Shown here: positions 22,822 to 38,140 of the stretch, one piece after another
Numbering within the stretch: position 1 is the stretch's first letter
Layout: each line of letters begins with the position of its first letter
Assembly: GCA_041447175.1 (NCBI GenBank)
Contig: CP166960.1
Span: 2,062,519 to 2,126,518, forward strand
DNA length: 64,000 bases
Source of the DNA: Candidatus Bathyarchaeia archaeon
Lineage (GTDB): Archaea > Thermoproteota > Bathyarchaeia > Bathyarchaeales > Bathycorpusculaceae
Reading direction: 5' to 3'
Position numbers and translations under genes: made by a program
Notes under the pieces: generated by a model
Database searches by the model: none
The model's input: the letters and a program-made list of their open reading frames with translations, nothing else
What the model was told of the DNA's origin: nothing

Positions 22822-23127
22822 ATGAAAACTGAAAACTGTGAAAGCGTGGAAGAGCAAACCTCAACAGGGTTTGGTAAATGGGGGTGGGTTTTCGCCGCGG
22901 GTTTTGGCATCATCATAGTAGGCATGCTGCTCATTGGGGCTTCTTCGGCGTTTAGCGGCAGCGGCTCCACCAGCACAGGCATCGTCATTTTCATTGGACC
23001 ATTTCCCATCGTCTTTGGTTCAGGTCCAGACGCAGCATGGCTCATCCTCATCGGATTAATTATTGCAGCTATAAGTGCGGTTTTGTTTGTGGTTAGAAGA
23101 AGAAAAGCAGAAACGTGGGTTGGTTAG
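22822..23127 (+). CDS. DUF131 small membrane protein, copy 2
   Basis: 101 residues; a hydrophilic N-terminal ~20 residues, then a helix (VFAAGFGIIIVGMLLIG), the DUF131 loop FIGPFPIVFGSGPDA and a second helix near the C-terminus followed by the basic tail RRRKAE. It is probably a diverged tandem duplicate of the preceding gene. Its stop overlaps by four bases the end of the convergent small gene at 23124-23249. Confidence 0.75.
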   Translation: MKTENCESVEEQTSTGFGKWGWVFAAGFGIIIVGMLLIGASSAFSGSGSTSTGIVIFIGPFPIVFGSGPDAAWLILIGLIIAAISAVLFVVRRRKAETWVG

Positions 23128-23249
23128 TCTTTTTCTTCTTTTTCCTCGTCTTTACCGTAGTACGCATCTAGCAGTATAATTGCAAGCGTGACAAAGGTAG
23201 CAGACATGGAAACGCCGATGAGAATCTGGAAATATCCGCCTATGTCCAT
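23124..23249 (-). CDS. Small single-span membrane protein (41 residues)
   Basis: A short frame that is easily missed. It begins MDIGGYFQILIGVSMSATFV, continues as one hydrophobic helix to about residue 28, and ends in the charged tail GKDEEKEEKD. Support: GAGGAA 6 bases before the ATG, a TATA core (TTTAAAT) inside a palindrome at 23284-23305, and a clean end that overlaps the convergent DUF131 stop by four bases. I do not recognise a family. The topology suggests a small subunit or regulator of a membrane complex. Confidence 0.6.
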   Translation of the reverse strand: MDIGGYFQILIGVSMSATFVTLAIILLDAYYGKDEEKEEKD

Positions 23250-23283
23250 GGTAGGTTCCTCATGTGATGTTATTTCATGTGGA

Positions 23284-23305
23284 GTTTAGGTATTTAAACC
23301 TAAAC
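23284..23305. promoter_or_regulatory. Palindromic operator around a TATA box
   Basis: Perfect inverted repeat GTTTAGGT (23284-23291) and ACCTAAAC (23298-23305) around the 6-base core ATTTAA, which can act as the TATA box of the minus-strand 41-residue gene. A repressor bound here would block TBP. The bound protein is not identifiable. Confidence 0.5.
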
Positions 23306-23338
23306 ATTAACCGGTGAATCAACGCTTTTTGGGGTGGG

Positions 23339-24265
23339 CTAGTAGACTATGATTTCGGTGACGAATTTTACCCAGAACTGTGCCCACTTGTACTGGTCTG
23401 TCGGGCAGAAAAGCCTGTAAGGTCCGCCTTCAGTGTGTGCCATGGGCATATCGTTTTCGAAGCACCCCAACATCATTGCACCGTCTTGAACTTGGGTGAA
23501 GGAGTAGTTTTTGGTGTAGCCGTCCACAGCGTTGACGACGATTTTTTCGGCTCTGGAGGACACGCCAGCCATGTCCAGCAGCTCCATGATGGGCATGCCA
23601 GTCCAGTTTGACCAACGTTTAACGCTGGGCGCAAACTCCGCGTACACGGTGGTGGTGGGGAAACTGGTGAGGTTTGCGCGAGTTATGGTCAAGGGGTTAG
23701 AGATTTCTGGCCCGGTTATGGTTATCATCCAGGGTTTAAAGTTAAGTTCGGCAACGTTTTGGACTTGGTATTCCATGGGGAAGTAAGGAGCAATGAGCTG
23801 CACTGGCCCACCTGTTTCGCTGGTCAGCCATTCCCCGTTTTTCACGAAGACCAAAGTGATTATGTTGTTGGTGTAGTAGTAGGGGTATGCACTGCTGTTG
23901 TAGGCGTGGAAAATGTTTAGGGTGGCTTTGGCGCCGTCGGTGCTGATTACGTCAATTGGCCCAACATCCCACCCAATGCCTGTGAGATTGCAGAAGTCGT
24001 AGAAGGGCACACCCACGTAGGTGACGTTTTCGCCAGTAAAATCGGCGGTGACATTGGTGAGGGGCATCTGGGTAAGTTCTTGAAGAGTGATTGACTTTTC
24101 TTGCCCCACATCGCCGGTGAGTTGGATTTGCCATTGTGGCGGTTCACCAGCAGGAAGCGAGCTTGGTTCCGAGGGACTGGCAAACTGGGTGAAATAAACT
24201 GTGAATGCGGCGGCTAAAATAACAACTATGGCTATGACGGCGTAGAGTGCGTTTTTTTTGTTCAT
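23339..24265 (-). CDS. Anchored extracellular protein with two molybdopterin-binding-like domains
   Basis: 308 residues. An N-terminal hydrophobic anchor (residues ~7-28) puts the rest outside the cell. Two repeats follow with the pattern of the sulfite-oxidase-type molybdopterin-binding fold: residues ~45-175 (ITLQELTQMPLTNVTADF, YVGVPFYDFCNLTGI) and ~185-305 (LTITRANLTSFPTTTVYAEF, WTGMPIMELLDMAGV, GGPYRLFCP). A cysteine is present in each repeat, but whether cofactor is bound is unknown. Related domains make up the 690-residue protein at 26523. Confidence 0.75.
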   Translation of the reverse strand: MNKKNALYAVIAIVVILAAAFTVYFTQFASPSEPSSLPAGEPPQWQIQLTGDVGQEKSITLQELTQMPLTNVTADFTGENVTYVGVPFYDFCNLTGIGWDVGPIDVISTDGAKATLNIFHAYNSSAYPYYYTNNIITLVFVKNGEWLTSETGGPVQLIAPYFPMEYQVQNVAELNFKPWMITITGPEISNPLTITRANLTSFPTTTVYAEFAPSVKRWSNWTGMPIMELLDMAGVSSRAEKIVVNAVDGYTKNYSFTQVQDGAMMLGCFENDMPMAHTEGGPYRLFCPTDQYKWAQFWVKFVTEIIVY

Positions 24266-24302
24266 TTCCCTTTCGTCCTAATCAACAAGCGGCGAATTAA
24301 CG

Positions 24303-24327
24303 ATATGCTTTTATAGACACAACGTTG
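24303..24327 (+). promoter_or_regulatory. TATA promoter, shared sequence copy 1
   Basis: Contains GCTTTTATAGACA, a strong archaeal TATA-like box about 80 bases before the metallophosphoesterase start. It matches 26467-26491 at 21 of 25 positions, beyond the TATA core itself. This suggests a common activator or simply a strong promoter type. Confidence 0.55.
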
Positions 24328-24387
24328 CCGTTTAATAAGACTTTCGCAGTAACTGATAAGTCTGTAAACGCAAATGAAGGATAAAAA

Positions 24388-25482
24388 ATGAAGAAACGGG
24401 CTCAAGTTAAGTTTGTTGCGGTGTTTTTTGTAGTTGCGGTATTTTGTGGGTTGGTTCAGTTCAGCAGCCAGCCAAGCACGGTTTGTGCTAAGGCGGTTTC
24501 AGACGCATCCATGGTTGCGGATGCATCCATAAACGCGACTTCGGGGGGGAATTTCTCGGTGATTTGGATTACCGACACACAGTACCTTACTGAAAGCTAC
24601 CCAACATACTATGAGGGCTTGTGCCATTGGATAGTGAACAACGCAGAAAAATACAACGTCCAAATGGTAATTCACACTGGCGACATAGTGGACACCGAGG
24701 GCAACACTACCCAGTGGGAATGCGCAAACAGGTCCATGAGTATACTTTGGGATGCAAATATTCCCTACACTTGGAACGCGGGCAACCACGACTACAACGC
24801 AACCTGCTGGATAGGCAACCAGTACGCAGCGTTTAATCCAGCAAACTTTGCGCAAGAACCGTACTGGATAGGAGATTTTGGTGATGGCCAGAACACGGCA
24901 GTTCACTTTGCATATAACGGGATGGAGTTTTTGGTTGTGAACTTGGAGTACAACGCGGATGATGCAGCATTGGCGTGGGCAAACAACGTGTTAGATGCGT
25001 ATCCAGATGCGCATGCCATCGTGGGTGCACATTTCTACCTTAACCGCACAGGCGGATACGAAACGTGGGCAACCAACCTAAAACAAACCATTCTGGCAAC
25101 TCACCAAAATGTATTCCTAACCTTAAGCGCCCACGTGTACCCGTTGGCGTATTCAGGTCTGCAGACCCGAGTCGGGGACAGGCACGAGCTGGTGTTTAAC
25201 CGTCAAGAAAAAGACAGTGAAATGGGAGCTGCAAGCTTGCGGATTCTGACCTTTGACACTGCCAACAACGTAATTGACGTGCAAACCTTTGTGATTTACT
25301 CCAACATATTCCTAAAAGACGAGCACAACCAGTTCACATTGAACACCAACTTCTGGAATGCCGCAGCAGTGAACGAAGAAATCCCCGAGTTCCCAACCGC
25401 CATTGCCTCGGTGGCAGTGTTAGCCTTTGCCACAGCCATTGTGGTCGCTGTGGGAAGGGACAAGAAAAAACAGAGAACATAG
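24388..25482 (+). CDS. Secreted metallophosphoesterase with IPEFP-type C-terminal anchor
   Basis: 364 residues. A signal peptide occupies residues ~1-35. The calcineurin-like phosphoesterase motifs are WITDTQY (metal ligands), HTGDIVD, NAGNHDY, VGAHFYL and LSAHVYPL, in the normal order, so the di-metal site looks complete. The C-terminus has IPEFP, then a hydrophobic helix, then GRDKKKQR. This tripartite end resembles archaeal sorting signals of the PEF-CTERM kind. It acts at the cell surface, on an unknown phosphate ester. Confidence 0.85.
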   Translation: MKKRAQVKFVAVFFVVAVFCGLVQFSSQPSTVCAKAVSDASMVADASINATSGGNFSVIWITDTQYLTESYPTYYEGLCHWIVNNAEKYNVQMVIHTGDIVDTEGNTTQWECANRSMSILWDANIPYTWNAGNHDYNATCWIGNQYAAFNPANFAQEPYWIGDFGDGQNTAVHFAYNGMEFLVVNLEYNADDAALAWANNVLDAYPDAHAIVGAHFYLNRTGGYETWATNLKQTILATHQNVFLTLSAHVYPLAYSGLQTRVGDRHELVFNRQEKDSEMGAASLRILTFDTANNVIDVQTFVIYSNIFLKDEHNQFTLNTNFWNAAAVNEEIPEFPTAIASVAVLAFATAIVVAVGRDKKKQRT

Positions 25483-25532
25483 ACACCTGCCTGCCCCCTT
25501 TTCCTATGGCTAACTTTAGCGGCGCACTACCG

Positions 25533-26336
25533 CTACCGGATTAAGTTACTTTTTTGTGCAGACTCGTTTTCGGCAGGGCTTGATTTGGGCAGGCGTCTTG
25601 TTGAGAGAAAGGCAACGGCAACAGAGACAACGGCTAACCCGAAGATTAAGGCTTCAAACACGGGCAAAGTAAGTGTTGAGGCGAAGGGCACAAAGAAGTC
25701 GATAAAGCCCATGGGCAACGCCAGCAGGAAATAGCGTTTTTTGTGAAATGCCGCGGCGATTAGGCAGAGGTAGCCCCACGCGAAATGTATCAGGAGGGAG
25801 GAGAAGCGTTCAAGCACGCCATAGCCGACCAGCGGCAGCGCTTCGGAAGTGGGATAAAACAGGGTGGGCTGTGTGTTTACGAGCTGCGTGTAGATTGTTG
25901 AGGCAATTGCCGTGTCTGAGGACAAGAGGGTGTAGATGAAGACCAAGTTGATTAAGGGCAGCACCCCTAACAGGACACCGTTTTCGTAGAAGGATAACCC
26001 CAACCCGTAGGCTTCGGCGTCTCTGGCGTCAAGCCGTTTTCGTGATGTGGCATACCATGCGACGACGTAGGCGATGCCGACCTCGAAAAGCATTGTTTGT
26101 AAACCGTAGTATACGCCGACGGGAACGCTTTGGGCTCCGAAACTGGAAACCACCGCGGAGGCAGTGAAGAACTGCAGGACATATTTTAGGGCAATAGCGA
26201 AGACGTAGGCTATGGCGGTGTAAAGCAGAATTATCCATTTGAAGCGGCGTTTTAGCCGCCAGTACAGAATTAGACCTACGCTGAGGGCAGTGACTATGAG
26301 GGGTTGAAGCACAAATAGGAGGTTTATGTTCTGCAT
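25533..26336 (-). CDS. Polytopic membrane protein, YhfC-like
   Basis: 267 residues with about seven membrane helices. Acidic and basic residues sit inside predicted helices: FEVGIAYVVAW, SFYENGVLLGV and GVLERFSSLLIHFAWGY. This spacing of Glu, Glu-Arg and His resembles the YhfC family of putative glutamic-type intramembrane proteases. The family match is by pattern only. It is convergent with the metallophosphoesterase. Confidence 0.55.
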   Translation of the reverse strand: MQNINLLFVLQPLIVTALSVGLILYWRLKRRFKWIILLYTAIAYVFAIALKYVLQFFTASAVVSSFGAQSVPVGVYYGLQTMLFEVGIAYVVAWYATSRKRLDARDAEAYGLGLSFYENGVLLGVLPLINLVFIYTLLSSDTAIASTIYTQLVNTQPTLFYPTSEALPLVGYGVLERFSSLLIHFAWGYLCLIAAAFHKKRYFLLALPMGFIDFFVPFASTLTLPVFEALIFGLAVVSVAVAFLSTRRLPKSSPAENESAQKSNLIR

Positions 26337-26466
26337 AGAGTTCCCCTTATGCTGTTTGGGCAGGTTTGTTTATATGGTTATGCGCCCAAGCGAATACAGG
26401 CAAAAGAAACAGCCGCACTAAGCCCGCAGTGTTAAAATTGTTGGGGGTTTTTTCTTCAAAAACTCG

Positions 26467-26491
26467 AAATGCTTTTATATACATAACGCTG
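26467..26491 (+). promoter_or_regulatory. TATA promoter, shared sequence copy 2
   Basis: GCTTTTATATACA forms a strong TATA box about 45 bases before the ATG of the 690-residue surface protein. It matches 24303-24327 at 21 of 25 bases. It probably drives the surface protein and perhaps wtpABC. Confidence 0.6.
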
Positions 26492-26522
26492 ATTTTGCGC
26501 CATAAAGGAGCGAAATCTAAAA

Positions 26523-28595
26523 ATGAGTTCTCAAACAAAAGGCAAATTCAACACTCAAGTAATTGCCGTAATTGCCATCATTGTCATCGTTGTCGCAGCA
26601 GTCGCAATCTGGCAAAGCGGTGTGTTCTCGCAGCCAGAATCCTCGCCCAGCCCAAGCCCAACCATTAACCCCACCAGCAACCCTAGCCCAACTGTCGTTC
26701 TACCTGACATGACCCTAACCGTTATTGGCGCAACTGGAGAACAGGTCGTCTTAAACGCACAAGACGTCGCAGCGCTTGAAGCCTACACCGCCAACGGCGG
26801 GTACAAAAGCAGCGGCGGATACATCGCAGCCGTAGGAAGCTACACAGGGGTACCCATTGTAACCCTCTGCGATATGGTCGGCGGAATCAACAGCGACCAA
26901 ACACTCACCATCACCGCATCCGACGGCTACTCCATGGTTTACACCTATGACCAAGCACACGGCGAAGGCTTCACCACCTACGACCCCGTCACAGGAAGCG
27001 AAAAAGACGCCACACAACCCATGACCATGGTAGCTAACTACTTCATGGACGGCGCCGATTTACCCTCCGACGAAGGACCCCTCAGAATCGGCGTCTTAGG
27101 ATCGGATGGTTTACTCACTGAAGGACACTTCTGGACAAAAATGGTCTCCAAGATAGAAATCACCAACAACGTCAGAGACTGGTCCATAACCGTTGACTCC
27201 ACAGGCGACACAGAACCTTACCACATGGACCGCCAAGCATTCACAGCCGACTACAACCACTTCACCCTCAGCTGGACTGACGAAAACGGCAACGTCTGGG
27301 CAGGCACAGCTCTGTGGCGATGGGTATCATGGTACAACTACAACGGCGGCATCAGCAACGACACCCTCAACAAAGGCTACCAAGTTAAACTCATAGCCGG
27401 CGACGGATTCTCCACAACATTTGACGACAGCGAAGTTTACCTTAACGACGACATCATAGTTGCAAGCACCATAAACGGCGGAGTCCTCTCGGAACCATAC
27501 TGGCCACTCACCATCGTAGGCCCAGACTTGACAGGACAACAAATGATCAAAAACATGGTCCACATCCAGATAGTGCTCGACGAAACCTCAGCTTCTCCAT
27601 CCCCAGCAGCCACTGCCACTCCAAAACCGACTGCTACCCCAACTTCCACACCCGCACACACCTCAACCCCAGCACCAACAACAGCTCCAACAACCACCCC
27701 AACACCCTCCCCATCCACAGCACCAACCCAAACCTACGACCTAACCGTCAATGGCACATCCGCAGTCACCATGGCCCAAACAGAGTTTGAGGCACAAGTC
27801 GCCACAGATGAAGTTACATGGACAGACAACAATGGCGGCGTCTACACAGGAACCCCACTTTACCAAATCGTAACATGGGGCGTGGATAACGGTGCAATAA
27901 GTAGCGACGCAATCGCAGACGGCTACGTCGTCAAAGTCATCGCATCCGACGGCACCACTTTAGCGCTTAATGACAGCCAAATCGACATGAACACAAACAT
28001 CTTCTTAGCAAACGAATACAATGGGGAAGCACTCGCAAGCGACACTGGACCCTTACGGCTCACTGGGGCAGATTTAAGCGGAGGCAAACAGCGGCTAAAA
28101 TGCGTGACCCAAATCCAAATCATGCCCATGGACCGTGACATGATTTTGACGGTGAAAGCAGCTAACGGAACAAGCGTCACCTTGTTTGCTAATGACATAG
28201 CCGCCATGGAAAGCTACACAGCAAACGGCGGAACCCGCAACAACGCAGCCATACTTGGCAACTTCGGCGAATACACTGGAATACCCATCATGGACCTGCT
28301 GGACTTGGTTGGCGGAGTCACCAGCGCAAATTCAGTTAAAGTAATTGCTTCAGACGGCTACGCATCCATCTACACCTACGGACAACTAAGTGGAGAAAGC
28401 GTCGCCATGTATAACGCCGCGGGCGAAGTTGTTACACCTACACAGCAAATAACCATGCTTGTCGCATACTACGTGAACGGAACCAGCATCGATTCAAGCG
28501 CAGGACCCTTGCGGACAATGTACGTTGGATCCGAAGGACTCTACTCTCAAGGCAACATGAACTCCAAGTTCGTCACAACCATCGAAATAGTCTAA
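26523..28595 (+). CDS. Surface protein with four molybdopterin-binding-like domains in A-B-B-A order
   Basis: 690 residues. N-terminal anchor (residues ~12-30) and a short Ser/Pro spacer. Domain A1 (~62-215) contains LEAYTANGGYKSSGG, GSYTGVPIVTLCDMVGG and TASDGYSMVYTY; domain B1 (~220-350) contains WTDENGNVWAGTALWRWVSW. A Thr/Pro linker (~355-403) is followed by domain B2 (~405-530, WTDNNGGVYTGTPLYQIVTW) and domain A2 (~533-690, MESYTANGGTRNN, GEYTGIPIMDLLDLVGG). The fold resembles the sulfite-oxidase molybdopterin-binding domain. It lies 29 bases upstream of wtpA, in the same direction, which suggests a role linked to tungstate/molybdate at the cell surface; that is inference. Confidence 0.75.
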   Translation: MSSQTKGKFNTQVIAVIAIIVIVVAAVAIWQSGVFSQPESSPSPSPTINPTSNPSPTVVLPDMTLTVIGATGEQVVLNAQDVAALEAYTANGGYKSSGGYIAAVGSYTGVPIVTLCDMVGGINSDQTLTITASDGYSMVYTYDQAHGEGFTTYDPVTGSEKDATQPMTMVANYFMDGADLPSDEGPLRIGVLGSDGLLTEGHFWTKMVSKIEITNNVRDWSITVDSTGDTEPYHMDRQAFTADYNHFTLSWTDENGNVWAGTALWRWVSWYNYNGGISNDTLNKGYQVKLIAGDGFSTTFDDSEVYLNDDIIVASTINGGVLSEPYWPLTIVGPDLTGQQMIKNMVHIQIVLDETSASPSPAATATPKPTATPTSTPAHTSTPAPTTAPTTTPTPSPSTAPTQTYDLTVNGTSAVTMAQTEFEAQVATDEVTWTDNNGGVYTGTPLYQIVTWGVDNGAISSDAIADGYVVKVIASDGTTLALNDSQIDMNTNIFLANEYNGEALASDTGPLRLTGADLSGGKQRLKCVTQIQIMPMDRDMILTVKAANGTSVTLFANDIAAMESYTANGGTRNNAAILGNFGEYTGIPIMDLLDLVGGVTSANSVKVIASDGYASIYTYGQLSGESVAMYNAAGEVVTPTQQITMLVAYYVNGTSIDSSAGPLRTMYVGSEGLYSQGNMNSKFVTTIEIV

Positions 28596-28624
28596 CAACG
28601 CTAAAAGTCAGGACACTGAGCTAA

Positions 28625-29716
28625 ATGAAAAAAACCTACGCGACGGCGGCAGTGATCATAGCAGTGATCCTGCTTGCCTCCACCTACTTTTTTGTTTTAA
28701 ACAACAACCCAGAAGAACAACAACCCAAACAAGTGCTCAAAGTTTACTGCGCCACCAGCCTCGAGTATCCACTGGCAATTGTAGAAGCTGACTTTGAGGA
28801 AGAATACCCCAACGTGGATTTACAGGTTCAGGGGCACGGAACAATCCAAGTAATCAGACACGTCACAGAGTTAAATCAAGAACTTGATGTGGTTATGGCA
28901 GCGGATTACTCGCTGATTCCAACCATGATGTACCCCACCAAAATTTCAGGCACCGACCAGAGCTACGGCACTTACTACATCCGATTCGCAACCAACACCA
29001 TGGTTCTTGCGTACACCAACACCAGCAAATACTCCGACGAAATCAACGCCGACAACTGGTACTCCATCCTCACGCGTCCCGATGTGAAGTTCGGGTTTGC
29101 TAACCCACAACTGGCTGCACTGGGATACCGCGCTTTAACAACCATTCAACTCGCCCAAGACTACTACAACAAACCCACACTGTTTCACGACTTAATCACC
29201 GATAACATGAACCCGCCGATAAACTCCATCGCCAGCGGAACCGGCTACACCATCACCGTTCCCGACACGCAGCAGCCGAAAAACGACAAAGTCACTTTGC
29301 GGTCAAGCGAAATAGACTTAATTGCTCTGCTTCAGTCCGGGTACCTTGACTACTCATTCATTTACCTGAGCAACGCAAGACAGTACGATTTTGGCTACAT
29401 AACGTTGCCTGACGAAATCAACTTGGGCTCGCCACAACAGCAAAGCAACTATGAACGCGTCCAAGTTGTCTATGACCACCAAAGATTTGCTACCGTGAAC
29501 CTTGACCGCACGGGCGAAAACATCTACTACGGCTTAACCATACCCACCAATGCGCCAAACCCGGAATGGGCAGAAAAATTTGTAGAGTTTGTTTTGGCGG
29601 GACAGGGAAAAACCGACTTTGACAACTGCTACCACCCTATCTACACTCCAGCATACACTGACCACATCGAGAACGTTCCAGCAAGCCTGCAGTCACTTGT
29701 CGCTGCAGAACCCTAA
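28625..29716 (+). CDS. wtpA: Tungstate/molybdate-binding protein of the ABC importer
   Basis: 363 residues. N-terminal signal/anchor (residues ~5-25), then a type II binding-protein fold: KVYCATSLEYPLAIVEADFE, VQGHGTIQVIRHVTEL and DVVMAADYSLIPTMMYP are typical of WtpA. The C-terminal region has YYGLTIPTNAPNPEWAEKFV. It captures tungstate or molybdate outside the cell for WtpBC. Tungsten use fits archaeal aldehyde:ferredoxin oxidoreductases and formylmethanofuran dehydrogenases, none of which lies in this window. A run of seven T follows the stop. Confidence 0.92.
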   Translation: MKKTYATAAVIIAVILLASTYFFVLNNNPEEQQPKQVLKVYCATSLEYPLAIVEADFEEEYPNVDLQVQGHGTIQVIRHVTELNQELDVVMAADYSLIPTMMYPTKISGTDQSYGTYYIRFATNTMVLAYTNTSKYSDEINADNWYSILTRPDVKFGFANPQLAALGYRALTTIQLAQDYYNKPTLFHDLITDNMNPPINSIASGTGYTITVPDTQQPKNDKVTLRSSEIDLIALLQSGYLDYSFIYLSNARQYDFGYITLPDEINLGSPQQQSNYERVQVVYDHQRFATVNLDRTGENIYYGLTIPTNAPNPEWAEKFVEFVLAGQGKTDFDNCYHPIYTPAYTDHIENVPASLQSLVAAEP

Positions 29717-29767
29717 CCTTTTTTTAAAAAGCACAGATAACCTCCAGTAGTGGACGGAGAGATAAGT

Positions 29768-30562
29768 GTGGGTTGGATAAAAGAGAAGTCCCTCTTCATC
29801 GCGGCATCCCTAATCTTAAGCGTAATTATGATACTGTTTCTGATGGTTCCAATAATAGGCACCTTGACAAGTTCAGCTTCAGGCATCCCCGCAGCCTTAA
29901 CAGACCAAAGAACGCTTAGCGCAATATGGACCAGTTTTTACTGCGCCTTCATAGCCACAGCTTTCATGTTGCTGCTGGGCGTGCCATTTGCTTACCTGTT
30001 CACCCACACGGAATTTCACGGAAAAAAACTCCTTGACTCCTTAATCGACATCCCCATACTTTTGCCCCACAACACCGCAGGCATCGCCCTGTTTGCCATT
30101 CTGGCGCCAAGCTACCCCATCGGAGCCGCCTTCGCCAAGTTAGGCATAGGGTTTGTGGACACGGTGTGGGGCATCGTGGCGGCTATGGCGTTTGTCAGCG
30201 CCCCCTTCATGATACGCAGCGCCCAAGAAGCCTTCACCTCCATAAGCCCCGACATGGAAAAAACCGGGCGCAGCTTAGGCGCAACACGGTTCAAAGTATT
30301 TAGGCATGTTACTTTACCGCTGGCGTGGCGGGGCATCCTAACGGGGTGCTTACTGACATGGGCAAGAGCCGTCAGCGAATTCGGAGCCGTAGCCATAATC
30401 GCGTACTTCCCCAAAACCGCACCCATCTACCTCTACGACACCTTCGTCACATACGGGTTAAACGCGGCGCTTCCAGTGAATGCGGTACTGATAATTCTTG
30501 CCATCACGATTCTGCTGGTGTTTAGGGCAACTGTGTTGAAATCAAAAAAGCTGATACCGTAA
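29768..30562 (+). CDS. wtpB: Tungstate/molybdate ABC transporter permease
   Basis: About 264 residues, six predicted membrane helices. The permease EAA loop is seen as SISPDMEKTGRSLGATRFKVFRHVTLPLAWRGILTG. GTG 29768 is preferred because GGAGAG lies 5-6 bases upstream; GTG 29750 would add only MDGEIS and has no ribosome site. The other two components of the importer flank it. Confidence 0.93.
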   Translation: MGWIKEKSLFIAASLILSVIMILFLMVPIIGTLTSSASGIPAALTDQRTLSAIWTSFYCAFIATAFMLLLGVPFAYLFTHTEFHGKKLLDSLIDIPILLPHNTAGIALFAILAPSYPIGAAFAKLGIGFVDTVWGIVAAMAFVSAPFMIRSAQEAFTSISPDMEKTGRSLGATRFKVFRHVTLPLAWRGILTGCLLTWARAVSEFGAVAIIAYFPKTAPIYLYDTFVTYGLNAALPVNAVLIILAITILLVFRATVLKSKKLIP

Positions 30563-30577
30563 CGCGGAGGAAAAAAA

Positions 30578-31636
30578 GTGGCACTGAAACTGGAAAACAT
30601 CACAAAAACATGGCGCGGATTCAAACTTCAAAACATCAACCTAACAGTCGAAAAAGGTGAATACTGCATCATTTTAGGACCCACAGGGTCAGGCAAAACC
30701 TTGCTGCTGGAAACCATCATGGGCTTCCAAAAACCCGACACGGGCAAAGTTCACCTTAACGGAGCCGACATCACGGGTCAGCTGCCTGAAAACCGAGGCT
30801 TAGGCTACGTCTCCCAAAACTGCACTCTATTTCCCCACCTGAACGTGCAGCAAAACGTCGAGTTTGGCCTAAAAATGCAAGGCACCCCGCAGGCGCAGAG
30901 AAGCAAAATCGCCCAAGACACACTAAAATCTCTTGGAATTGCAGCGTTGGCAAATCGGTCACCAGCCACTTTGAGTGGAGGAGAAAAACAGAAAACCGTC
31001 ATCGCGCGGGTTTTGGCGGTGAAGCCCACCACCATCCTGTTGGATGAACCATTGACGGGGTTGGACCCTGAATCTTCACGGGAGCTTAAAGCCATCCTCA
31101 AGCAAATTCACAAAGACGGCAAAACCATCCTACACGTAACCCATAACCAAGTGGAAGGCTTCAGCTTGGGCGAACGCATGGCAATCATAAAGGCGGGGCA
31201 GATAGAGCAAATAGGCAAAACCCGCGACGTCTTTGCTCAACCCAAAAACAGGTTTGTGGCAGGTTTCTTGGGTTACGAAAACATATTCCCCGCCCAAAGG
31301 GCAGAGCAACAAAACGGTGTACAGTTGGTTCATGTGGGGAACATGGTTTTGCGTTCATTAACAAAGCCCTCAACCGACAGGTTCAGTATTGCCATCCGCC
31401 CCGAAGACATCAACGTAAACCTCACAGAAGTGGAAAAGGCGGCGTGGAACATTTTGGAGGGAAATGTTGTGGACTTCACCGACCAGGGACCACACGTGGC
31501 GGTGACGTTTGAGGCGGGGCTACCCTTAATGGCGGTTATGACTAAAAGCGTGTTTGTGGAGGCAAATCTGGAGGTAGGGCAGAAGGTGTGGCTTTCCTTT
31601 AAGCCTCAAGCCGTGCGGGTAATCGAAGAAGCCTGA
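30578..31636 (+). CDS. wtpC: Tungstate/molybdate ABC transporter ATPase
   Basis: 352 residues. Walker A GPTGSGKT (~35-42), signature LSGGEKQKTVIAR, Walker B TTILLDEPLTGLDP and the switch histidine in LHVTHNQVE are all present. The last ~110 residues form a MOP/TOBE-like regulatory domain (FSIAIRPEDINVNL ... VWLSFKPQAVRVI), known in this family to bind oxyanions or adjust activity. GTG 30578 has GGAGG upstream. It energises WtpB. Confidence 0.94.
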   Translation: MALKLENITKTWRGFKLQNINLTVEKGEYCIILGPTGSGKTLLLETIMGFQKPDTGKVHLNGADITGQLPENRGLGYVSQNCTLFPHLNVQQNVEFGLKMQGTPQAQRSKIAQDTLKSLGIAALANRSPATLSGGEKQKTVIARVLAVKPTTILLDEPLTGLDPESSRELKAILKQIHKDGKTILHVTHNQVEGFSLGERMAIIKAGQIEQIGKTRDVFAQPKNRFVAGFLGYENIFPAQRAEQQNGVQLVHVGNMVLRSLTKPSTDRFSIAIRPEDINVNLTEVEKAAWNILEGNVVDFTDQGPHVAVTFEAGLPLMAVMTKSVFVEANLEVGQKVWLSFKPQAVRVIEEA

Positions 31637-32071
31637 TTACGTGGTTGGGGTTTTCCACTCTTTCATTAAACAATCATAAAGCTCGTCGCGCTCGTCAACA
31701 ACCTCGTACCAGCCAAGGTTTTTGGCGATTTTCTGCGCAATCAAGTGGTAACAAAGGTGGGCTTTTTTGTCTAAGACCCGAAAATAAAAATCGTCACAGG
31801 TGCAGAATTCGGCTTCAGGCATCAAAAGGTATTCCCGTTCGCGCCCAATTACAATCCAGACGCTGCGGTTGCTGGGTTTGAAGCGGTATTTTTTGATGCG
31901 GTTTTCCTTAAGTGCCTCCAAGGCTTTGGTGAAGCGTTGCCCAAAAAGGTCGTAGAGTTCGGTGAGGTTTTTGCCTGAGAGTTTATCCTGGGTTTTTGCC
32001 TGTTTGCATATGGCGTTTAAGCGGTCGATTTCGTTGGGTTCTTGCTTGTCGGGTTTATCGGTTTGAGTCAT
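31637..32071 (-). CDS. SWIM zinc-finger protein
   Basis: 144 residues. The C-terminal half has the SWIM pattern C-x-C ... C-x-H: FCTCDDFYF and HLCYHLIAQKIA, with the spacing seen in archaeal SWIM proteins. The N-terminal half is basic and helical. SWIM modules bind nucleic acid or proteins; one archaeal group is related to the eukaryotic Shu-complex protein SWS1, a recombination factor. Such a role is possible but not shown. Its stop abuts the wtpC stop (convergent). Confidence 0.75.
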   Translation of the reverse strand: MTQTDKPDKQEPNEIDRLNAICKQAKTQDKLSGKNLTELYDLFGQRFTKALEALKENRIKKYRFKPSNRSVWIVIGREREYLLMPEAEFCTCDDFYFRVLDKKAHLCYHLIAQKIAKNLGWYEVVDERDELYDCLMKEWKTPTT

Positions 32072-32713: not shown

Positions 32714-32941
32714 TTACAAATCACCAGTAACAATTGCGTTTTCCGCTCCAATAAGGTTTACCCCAAAAAATAAACAAAACGCCACAAAAACTGGTTCTCT
32801 CGAAGATTAGCTGAAATGCACAAATATTTTATATTACGACACGTCATCGAGAGTTAGAAGTTACTAGTGTGGCGGATTCCTCTGGAAAACAGTTCAAAAA
32901 CCAACAAGCCAAACGCGATAATCAACAGTGGGAACTGCAAT

Positions 32942-34501
32942 ATGGAAGAGACACGGTGCCGTAGCCTTTTTGATGTCAGCCCAGATGGGGTGTTGTTGGT
33001 GACATTTGAGGGGAACATTTTTTTAGCCAACTTTAACGCGCGGCAAATGCTGGGTATAACTGAAAAAGAGCTGAAAACCAAAACCATTGAAGATATAGGA
33101 GTAAGCAAGGAGCAGCTAACAGCAGCATTCAAAGGACCAGACCGAACAAACAATACAAGAATCGAGCTGGAAGTTAAAGGCAAAGAAGTCCCCTTTTACG
33201 CGGAGATTTTCGCCAGCACTTTTGTGGACTGCGATGGCATAACCAAAATAATTATGAAAATAAGAGACATCAGTCAACGCAAAAAAGATGCCCAATCACT
33301 CGAGGAAAGCGAAGAAAAATATCACTCGCTTTTTCAAAATATGCTAAACGGCTTTGCATACTGCAAAATCATCACGGACGAAAATGGTGAAGTGGAAGAC
33401 TTTGAATACCTCGAAGTCAACGACGCGTTTGAGCAGATAACGGGACTTAAAAAAGCTGAGGTTACAGGAAAAAGAGTCACTGAAGTAATCAAAGGCATAA
33501 AAGAAGCCCATCCTGAACTGTTCGCAACCTATGGCAGGGTAGCCTTCACGGGAAAAACAGAGAAATTTGTGATTTATTTCAAACCGTTAAAAATTTGGCT
33601 TTCAATTACAGCGTACTGTCTTAAAAAAGGCTACTTCGCGGCGGTCTTTGAAAACGTCACGGAACAAAAACAGAACGAGAAAAAGCTGGAAGAGTACTCT
33701 GAAGGGTTAGAATTCACCATTGCCGCCCGAACTGAAGAGTTATCCAACATTAATGACCGCCTTTTGAAGGCTGAAAGGTTTGCAGCCATCGGCGAGTTGG
33801 CGGGCATGGTTGGGCATGACTTGCGCAACCCATTAACCGCCATAAAAAACGCTGTTTATTATCTGGACAGAAAACAAGGTCCCTCAATGGATGCAAAGAC
33901 CAAAGAAATGTTTAAGGTAATTAACAATTCAGTTGCGCATGCTAACAAGATTATAGGTAACCTGCTTGAATACTCCAAAGAGATAAGTTTAGAAATCGAA
34001 GAAGCCACACCTAAATCGCTTCTTGACTACATACTGTTAATGGTTCAAATTCCGTCACACATAAAAATACAGGACCGCACCCAAGATAACCCCATAATTT
34101 GGGTGGACTGCAACAAAATTGAGAGAGTGTTCATAAACCTCATAAAAAACGCAATTGACGCCATGCCTGAAGGGGGGACACTGGAGATAAGAAGCCGCCA
34201 TGTCGGGGAAGAAGTGGAGTTTAGTTTTTCTGACACAGGCTCAGGCATGACGGAGCAGAACAAAGCCAAAATCTTCATGCCGCTGTTCACCACAAAAGCG
34301 CAGGGTATGGGTTTTGGGTTAGCCATATGTAAACGCATTGTTGACGCCCACGGGGGCAGAATCAGCGTAGAAAGCACATTGGGCAAAGGAACCACGTTCA
34401 CAGTGACTCTTCCCGTGGAACAAAAACTTCGGGTCAAAGAAGAGGAAAACATGATAATTCAAACAGACCAATACGATGCCCTCCAACATGACCTGAGTTA
34501 A
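32942..34501 (+). CDS. PAS-domain sensor histidine kinase, soluble
   Basis: About 519 residues from ATG 32942; an in-frame GTG at 32867 would add 25 residues. Two PAS domains (~5-115, starting CRSLFDVSPDGVLLV; ~120-245, starting YHSLFQNMLNGFAYCKI) are joined by a coiled coil to a HisKA domain with the phospho-acceptor in GMVGHDLRNPLTAIKNA and a HATPase with NLIKNAIDAMPEGG, FSDTGSGM and GMGFGLAICKRI. No membrane helix is seen, so it senses an internal signal. No response regulator is nearby. A TATA-like box (32824-32834) lies between inverted 7-mers CTCTCGA and TCGAGAG. Confidence 0.88.
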   Translation: MEETRCRSLFDVSPDGVLLVTFEGNIFLANFNARQMLGITEKELKTKTIEDIGVSKEQLTAAFKGPDRTNNTRIELEVKGKEVPFYAEIFASTFVDCDGITKIIMKIRDISQRKKDAQSLEESEEKYHSLFQNMLNGFAYCKIITDENGEVEDFEYLEVNDAFEQITGLKKAEVTGKRVTEVIKGIKEAHPELFATYGRVAFTGKTEKFVIYFKPLKIWLSITAYCLKKGYFAAVFENVTEQKQNEKKLEEYSEGLEFTIAARTEELSNINDRLLKAERFAAIGELAGMVGHDLRNPLTAIKNAVYYLDRKQGPSMDAKTKEMFKVINNSVAHANKIIGNLLEYSKEISLEIEEATPKSLLDYILLMVQIPSHIKIQDRTQDNPIIWVDCNKIERVFINLIKNAIDAMPEGGTLEIRSRHVGEEVEFSFSDTGSGMTEQNKAKIFMPLFTTKAQGMGFGLAICKRIVDAHGGRISVESTLGKGTTFTVTLPVEQKLRVKEEENMIIQTDQYDALQHDLS

Positions 34502-38033: not shown

Positions 38034-38140
38034 TGGTGCCGGGGGCGGGATTCGAGCCCGCGACCTCTGGCAATGGGCGTTTGGCCCTTTTGTCTCCAGA
38101 TTATGAGTCTGGCGCCCTAGCCAGGCTAGGCTACCCCGGC
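38034..38140 (-). tRNA. tRNA-Met (CAT) with a probable 29-nt intron in the variable loop
   Basis: Acceptor stem GCCGGGG/CCCCGGC, D arm GCCT...GGGC, anticodon arm CCAGA-CTCATAA-TCTGG (anticodon CAT), T arm GCGGG-CTCGAAT-CCCGC; discriminator A and an encoded CCA (38034-38036). Between the anticodon stem and T stem there are 34 nucleotides; removing 29 (from AGACAAAA to GCCAG) leaves the normal AGGTC variable loop. The extra piece contains a small hairpin GGGC-CAAAC-GCCC. The sequence outside is that of an elongator tRNA-Met. Confidence 0.93.

Follow-up and report, generated by a model that had tools for sequence, protein, structure and literature searches.

A four-domain sulfite-oxidase-fold protein upstream of wtpABC in a Bathyarchaeia genome: a candidate receptor for the tungsten/molybdenum cofactor

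We analysed a 64,000-nucleotide stretch of DNA from a Candidatus Bathyarchaeia archaeon (contig CP166960.1, positions 2,062,519 to 2,126,518; hereafter, the window) in which the genes for the tungstate/molybdate importer WtpABC are immediately preceded by a gene for a 690-residue predicted surface protein with four domains of the sulfite-oxidase fold (SO690; 26523-28595, + strand). The account we prefer, and hold with moderate confidence, is that SO690 acts, on the outside of the cell, as the capturing component of a system that takes up the tungsten/molybdenum pterin cofactor or fragments of it. According to this account, sulfite-oxidase/PruR-fold domains that lack the metal-ligating Cys would, at the cell surface, bind pyranopterin that other cells have shed, as free molybdopterin or tungstopterin; a neighbouring secreted phosphoesterase would trim the phosphate or nucleotide tail; freed tungstate would be handed to WtpA and imported via WtpBC; and, in relatives, the pterin itself would be taken in by a YkoE-type energy-coupling factor (ECF) transporter. 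The ligand, the order of the steps, the phosphoesterase substrate, the ECF cargo, and the piece that enters the window organism are what we infer from genomic evidence. The Mo/W cofactor is the common thread of that evidence: a riboswitch, mob/fdh/fwd neighbours, a tungstate importer, and, near one relative, an aldehyde ferredoxin oxidoreductase. Capture of an organic cofactor fits better than capture of bare tungstate because a pterin-binding fold, a phosphoesterase, and a vitamin-type importer occur together, and capture of metal fits because wtpABC is adjacent; a single process, cofactor capture followed by dismantling, would cover both lines.

Domain organization and fold of SO690

SO690 matches the Pfam family Oxidored_molyb (PF00174) in three stretches (2.7e-16). 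Its outer domains, A1 (26706-27170, +) and A4 (28128-28592, +), are 43% identical (z = 47; 300 shuffles here and below), and its inner domains, B2 (27171-27578, +) and B3 (27732-28127, +), which flank a Thr/Pro/Ser-rich linker (27579-27722, +), are 37% identical (z = 30). The four A/B cross pairs give z = 0.8, 1.3, 5.8, and 7.0. Like pairs at 47 and 30 vs. cross pairs at 0.8-7.0 place the A-B-B-A order well above chance and confirm an earlier note on this DNA, which had described a 690-residue open reading frame (ORF) with four such domains, alike in outer and inner pairs, followed by wtpA, wtpB, and wtpC. SO690 is a real gene, since full-length relatives are present in three congeneric genomes (72, 68, and 56% identity). 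The complete A-B-B-A order was found in four proteins of the genus only; other relatives have the orders A, AA, AB, BA, BAB, ABA, ABB, and multi-B. The predicted surface location comes from a single feature, an N-terminal hydrophobic segment (approximately residues 12-30; 26556-26612, +; identified by eye) that may be a signal or a membrane anchor; a weak Pilin_N match at the same terminus (E 0.56) is below cut-off.

A structure model of A1-B2 was built from 21 aligned sequences (predicted local distance difference test score, pLDDT, 85; predicted template-modelling score, pTM, 0.61). Among the top chains returned by Foldseek, to which the comparison applies and beyond which other folds are possible too, domain A is nearest to sulfite oxidase 3hbg (Z 14.9 over 134 residues, 2.3 A) and domain B is nearest to PruR 7kom (Z 15.0 over 117 residues, 2.3 A), with Z 14.6 for domain B vs. 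7rkb, PruR with neopterin. An alignment profile of AB searched against PDB sequences returned nothing convincing (7kom, E 0.077), so the kinship is visible only by fold.

Judged by alignment to a canonical sulfite-oxidase-family member of the window genome, no Cys occurs within 3 columns of the metal-ligating position in any A domain (0/61) or any B domain (0/43), and the two Cys residues of SO690 (116 and 527) both lie elsewhere. A Cys is present a few residues upstream of the canonical column in 18 of 21 B rows, the three rows of the window lineage being those without it; this residue was considered as a metal ligand and was rejected when alignment to the canonical member did not bear it out. 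Asp, Gly, and Lys residues are among those that do not vary across the 21 aligned rows.

These results bear on the possibility that SO690 is a sulfite-oxidase-family enzyme, secreted, with Mo/W-dependent oxidoreductase activity, and encoded near wtp because of its need for metal. SO690 shares the fold and the PF00174 signature with that family (SUOX, SorA, SoxC, MsrP/YedY), names such as sulfite dehydrogenase appear among the weak NCBIfam matches of its relatives and of SO308 (a smaller window homologue described below), and passages of Regulski et al. (PMC2408646) take the Syntrophomonas wolfei genes under one class of riboswitch, discussed below, to be putative sulphite oxidases. However, SO690 differs from the family in its tandem repeated domains as well as in its missing Cys, and every NCBIfam enzyme model falls far under cut-off. 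Because A and B domains alike lack the metal-ligating Cys, SO690 is, as judged from sequence, no enzyme of the sulfite oxidase family, and we consider an oxidoreductase role very unlikely. Binding of oxometal species in an enzyme-type pocket finds no direct support for the same reason.

One of the closest known proteins is PruR, which is described, in the parts of a review that concern it (PMC13259868), as a periplasmic, sulfite-oxidase-like protein that has no metal Cys and binds free pterins. SO690 resembles PruR of the PruR-DcpA system in having the sulfite-oxidase fold, a predicted extracytoplasmic location, and no metal Cys, but PruR, in the same source, is a single small domain, has a cyclic di-GMP or kinase regulator as its partner, and binds small pterins. 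The likeness admits a reading in which SO690 is a PruR-like receptor that signals extracellular pterin status, with wtpABC adjacent by accident: PruR is the nearest solved fold listed for domain B, and passages of the review present it as a signalling receptor. However, no receptor-type regulator was recognised beside SO690 or its relatives, whose partners are importers and phosphoesterases, and no DcpA or DTB-type regulator was found among the neighbours of SO690 (a phosphoesterase, SO308, a YhfC-like membrane protein, and wtpABC). A PAS kinase at 32867-34501 of the window, with a counterpart in one congeneric genome (G002), shows no extracellular region by eye. A sensor role, also raised in the earlier note, thus appears very unlikely.

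Linkage to wtpABC and to a phosphoesterase

SO690 is followed by wtpA (28625-29716, +), wtpB (permease; 29750-30562, +), and wtpC (ATPase with a TOBE domain; 30578-31636, +), with gaps of only 29, 33, and 15 bases, on which grounds SO690 and wtpABC probably form one transcript. Approximately 40 bases ahead of the start codon of SO690 is a TATA-like element (TTTATATA; 26474-26481, +; identified by eye). WtpA, the tungstate/molybdate-binding protein, clears the TIGR03730 cut-off (311.5 vs. 242.75 bits) and is the sole WtpA match in the window genome, a single contig of 2.73 Mb with close relatives that include the metagenome-assembled genomes Candidatus Bathyarchaeota archaeon DYS_6 and DYS_1. 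For WtpB and WtpC, NF040839 (3.6e-76) and NF040840 (2.4e-109) are the best-scoring models but remain under the equivalog cut-offs (256/340 and 366/440 bits).

A scan of genome contigs with SO690 as lone query returned no matches, and relatives were found with closer A-domain alignments. SO690 lies immediately upstream of wtpABC in 4/4 full-length relatives (G000, G001, G002, and G006); within the genus these four genomes have both full-length SO690 and wtpA, and wtpA is present in 0/3 of the others (G003, G004, G005). Among the order's 162 genomes, an SO690 relative is present in 17, wtpA in 21, and both in six (p 0.011), with the genes adjacent in five of the six and on separate contigs in G080. 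In another genus (G016), one reading frame starts as WtpA and runs into an A domain, and a B domain follows in another frame after a break that may be an assembly error, followed by a second wtpA, wtpB, and wtpC; the WtpA-A frame with its break before the B domain is at L049:5098-7036 (-), in a 58%-complete draft genome. A-domain searches gave 21 named loci, of which nine are wtp-linked: two that are not independent of G002 and G006 (L126, L127), one in Methanomethylicus (L128), five in Methanosarcinales and Methanophagales (L130, L131, L133, L134, L136), and one in Thermoleophilia, an actinobacterium (L137), in the order three SO frames, wtpA, wtpB, wtpC. At two further loci (L132, L135) the sequence stops shortly past the SO genes.

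The wtp link is thus real yet not obligate. It recurs in distant groups (Methanomethylicia, anaerobic methanotrophic archaea, an actinobacterium, and a Bacillota genome), contrary to the consistently distant placement of homologues that the earlier note had named as counting against its own reading; an SO-fold neighbour is lacking at the majority of the order's wtp operons. The same note proposed a surface protein with a link to Mo/W. This proposal gains support from wtp adjacency across distant phyla and, for the wider family, from riboswitches for the molybdenum and tungsten cofactors (Moco/Tuco) and from mobAB-fdhD-fwd neighbours; the choice of wtpABC as the partner needs revision, since wtpABC is one of several partners of the A/B family and a phosphoesterase is the more constant one.

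In the window, this phosphoesterase is a secreted calcineurin-like protein (24388-25482, +; PF00149, 8.1e-9) with a PEF-type C-terminal sorting tail, recognised by eye. Beyond it lies SO308, a two-domain relative of SO690 (23339-24265, -; PF00174, 4.4e-25, two stretches), whose position next to the phosphoesterase is conserved in G006, G002, and G001 and which is probably another part of the SO690 module. The earlier note mentions neither SO308 nor the phosphoesterase. Window-type phosphoesterase homologues occur beside SO proteins in six genomes (G094, G092, G089, G086, G095, and G046; g12 and g28), near none of which were wtp genes seen, and the same gene is next to SO proteins in g1 genomes too. 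PF00149-type enzymes with a C-terminal A domain occur in Bacillota and in one Thermoplasmatota genome (PF00149 confirmed for L141), and enzymes of the purple-acid-phosphatase type (PF16656 plus PF00149) occur in one cluster of anaerobic methanotrophic archaea (ANME) and one of Bacillota; no phosphoesterase was recognised at L128 or L137. When the types are aligned they have D-x-Q (nearly invariant), GD, GNH, and second-His positions in common. The usual phosphoesterase metal motif is D-x-H, and the window enzyme has D-x-Q at that place. Because window-type and Bacillota-type enzymes are just 18-19% identical, they share the PF00149 superfamily without orthology being implied. The phosphoesterase model (pLDDT 70) and profile match purple acid phosphatases, cyclic-nucleotide phosphodiesterases, and Mre11-type enzymes equally, so that cleavage of a phosphomonoester and of a pyrophosphate are indistinguishable.

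ECF transporter genes and riboswitches in Bacillota

In Bacillota, the operons of the relatives connect the SO-fold domains to a vitamin-type importer. Six loci (L139, L141-L144, L146) have the same gene set: phosphoesterase-A, AB, an S component with a C-terminal A piece, an ATPase, and a T component (the frames called in L143 and L144 are partly misplaced, an effect of simple ORF calling). A Thermoplasmatota locus (L140) has a similar set. At L141, the S component, of the YkoE type (PF09819), carries a PF00174 domain at its C terminus, and the T component is of the CbiQ type (PF02361); the ECF ATPase was assigned by similarity in the relatives' operons. As a comparison, passages on the queuosine system QueK-QrtT-QueL of Clostridioides difficile (PMC11477304) describe an operon that likewise combines a riboswitch, an S component, and a hydrolase, but for another ligand and with no extracellular SO-fold receptor, and the portions of a paper on ECF transport in Geotalea that bear on the subject (PMC13119186) cover cobalt only.

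The Bacillota operons are further accompanied by the Moco/Tuco riboswitch, RF01055, first seen at L139, L141, L143, L144, and L146. To extend these results, 398 Bacillota genomes were searched; 30 have the AB family, and stretches were fetched for the 24 that had not been examined earlier. RF01055 occurs with the module in 15 of the 24 fetched stretches, vs. 0/12 unrelated control stretches of approximately 12 kb, drawn from twelve of these genomes (p 2.6e-4), and in 20 of the 30 AB-family genomes overall. No RF01055 was seen in G175, G518, G283, G545, or G529, where contigs are short or end near the genes, nor in the stretches of G300, G487, G508, G236, and G363. P3 is absent from all 21 RF01055 elements, with few bases at its place. 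In the sections of PMC2408646 that treat such RNAs, absence of P3 tracks use of the tungsten cofactor, and the S. wolfei "sulphite oxidase" genes stand as exceptions; our Bacillota operons likewise have the P3-lacking element, but their SO-fold genes are in an uptake module (the S. wolfei genes themselves lie outside our comparison). One Bacillota locus (L189) ties the window-type operon to the riboswitch, because there riboswitch, a 1716-residue multi-B protein, an A protein, wtpA, and wtpB form one run. At L145:7088-12039, an A protein lies no more than approximately 3 kb from an aldehyde ferredoxin oxidoreductase (PF01314/PF02730), a tungsten-enzyme family. As separate observations, L183, L184, and L185 have a riboswitch and an AB protein followed, by eye, by a nitrilase-like protein, and L185 has an NMT1-type solute-binding protein and ABC genes with the module, a third kind of importer.

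The Bacillota data also bear on whether SO690 could be a ligand-free structural surface protein, S-layer-like, made from an old fold and hitch-hiking in operons. The Thr/Pro linker, the repeats, the multi-domain shuffling, and the very long multi-B proteins of Bacillota would suit such a protein. The tungsten-type riboswitch, the fusions to a phosphoesterase and an S component, and the repeated Wtp linkage would not, and we regard a purely structural role as highly unlikely.

Cofactor synthesis genes and the case for salvage

If the module captures cofactor, some carriers might use cofactor that they cannot make. Of the 162 genomes of the order, 132 have MoaC, which, like MoaE, belongs to molybdopterin synthesis. 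Among the 32 genomes that we count in genus g12, MoaC is missing from 5/9 SO carriers vs. 0/23 non-carriers (p 6e-4); the five (G086, G087, G089, G092, and G094) also have no MoaE, and four of them keep one MoeA. The module of G092 (99% complete) has MobA on one side and MobB, FdhD, and Fwd genes on the other, and, with neither MoaC nor MoaE, this organism can use, yet apparently not make, the cofactor. The same mob/fdhD/fwd setting is found in G095, which has MoaC and also a PF09819 S component beside the SO gene. G089 has fdhD, mobA, and selD nearby, and G094 and G086 have selD (the last by eye). SelD (selenophosphate synthetase) and, by eye, a LysR-type regulator and a DsrE-like protein recur beside the SO/phosphoesterase cassette at three g12 loci (L106, L108, L113). 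The genomes with wtp-linked modules that were checked have kept MoaC, except that of L134. A PF00384 scan of the 162 genomes at E 1e-20 missed divergent FwdB proteins (that of G092 scores 51 bits) and was, for this reason, not used for judging cofactor need.

Several observations weigh against cofactor capture. For two g12 carriers (G087, G090), the matches that make them carriers are short and weak, and, when these two genomes are recounted as non-carriers, the comparison becomes 4/7 vs. 1/25 without MoaC (p 0.004). Across the order, absence of MoaC is weakly tied to carriage (6/17 vs. 24/145; p 0.09), and an SO relative is lacking from many of the genomes without MoaC. Loss of MoaC and MoaE in draft genomes may be gaps, and a MoaE match is absent from all Bacillota genomes checked, including carriers that have MoaC. 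The window genome itself has MoaC, MoaE, and three MoeA matches, so that the gain in the window organism would be mostly metal. In G046, where MoaC, MoaE, and MoeA are all missing, the cassette has no mob genes next to it, and the modules of G092, G094, G089, and G086 have no recognised importer as a neighbour. Co-occurrence with wtpABC, which the earlier note had proposed to examine, holds for all full-length relatives, but 15 of the 21 wtpA genomes of the order have no SO relative, and none of ten wtp operons inspected in genomes without an SO relative has an SO neighbour. In the window, Rfam at gathering thresholds finds two tRNAs and no riboswitch, and a search of 23000-32000 at E up to 10 gave nothing relevant. 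Absence of Cys at the canonical column of 61 A and 43 B domains makes firm metal ligation unlikely, and, according to the PruR passages of PMC13259868, the truncated PruR site is probably unable to hold full Moco.

The strongest competitor is a purely inorganic one: the domains would bind a tungstate or molybdate oxyanion, or thio/oxo species, directly and raise its local concentration for WtpA, with no pterin involved. Such a trap would account for wtpA being next door in several phyla, for the G016 frame that joins WtpA to an A domain, for the single wtpA of the window genome, and for the tungsten-type riboswitch on relatives. However, an inorganic trap leaves unexplained the YkoE-type ECF partners, the recurrent phosphoesterase, the mobAB-fdhD-fwd setting in a MoaC/MoaE-less genome, and the PruR fold, and the canonical metal Cys is absent. 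We consider it unlikely, though a serious contender, and we hold cofactor capture with no more than moderate confidence, because the support is genomic and because the review doubts that a PruR site accommodates Moco. The scavenger role put forward in the earlier note is partly borne out and extends far beyond the window locus.

Two observations concern other parts of these genomes. A single-A-domain paralogue of 265 residues (L053:9171-9968, -) lies, by eye, among ribosomal-protein genes on the opposite strand, and similar single-A paralogues in G006 and G002 (L051, L052) lie in another ribosomal/RNA polymerase gene cluster. A tRNA gene at 38037-38140 of the window (-) is, at 104 bases by Rfam, above the usual length and possibly contains an intron. 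A PHROGs search returned no relevant match.

The general view is that every prokaryotic cell makes its own Mo/W cofactor de novo, and we found no description of a prokaryotic uptake system for it in the open-licence literature searched. The gene sets described here probably constitute a little-noticed family of uptake gene sets common to archaea and bacteria. More tentatively, and with somewhat less than even confidence, we propose that they represent a dedicated Mo/W cofactor salvage route across both domains, in which Cys-less SO-fold receptors and a phosphoesterase would capture and trim environmental tungstopterin, YkoE-type ECF or other importers would take the pterin while WtpABC would take the freed metal, and a tungsten-cofactor riboswitch would turn the system off when cofactor is plentiful. 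Portions of a survey (PMC6147048) report several hundred prokaryotes with molybdoproteins and no complete cofactor pathway, and suggest parts of the biosynthesis that are not yet known or metal-independent enzymes; an uptake system would be a third answer, one that is testable in culturable Bacillota. If the proposal is true, organisms without molybdopterin synthesis could use tungstoenzymes, part of the "orphan molybdoprotein" genomes would be explained, the "sulphite oxidase" genes that riboswitch work has treated as exceptions could be accounted for, and many proteins annotated as molybdopterin-dependent oxidoreductases would be recast as cofactor receptors.

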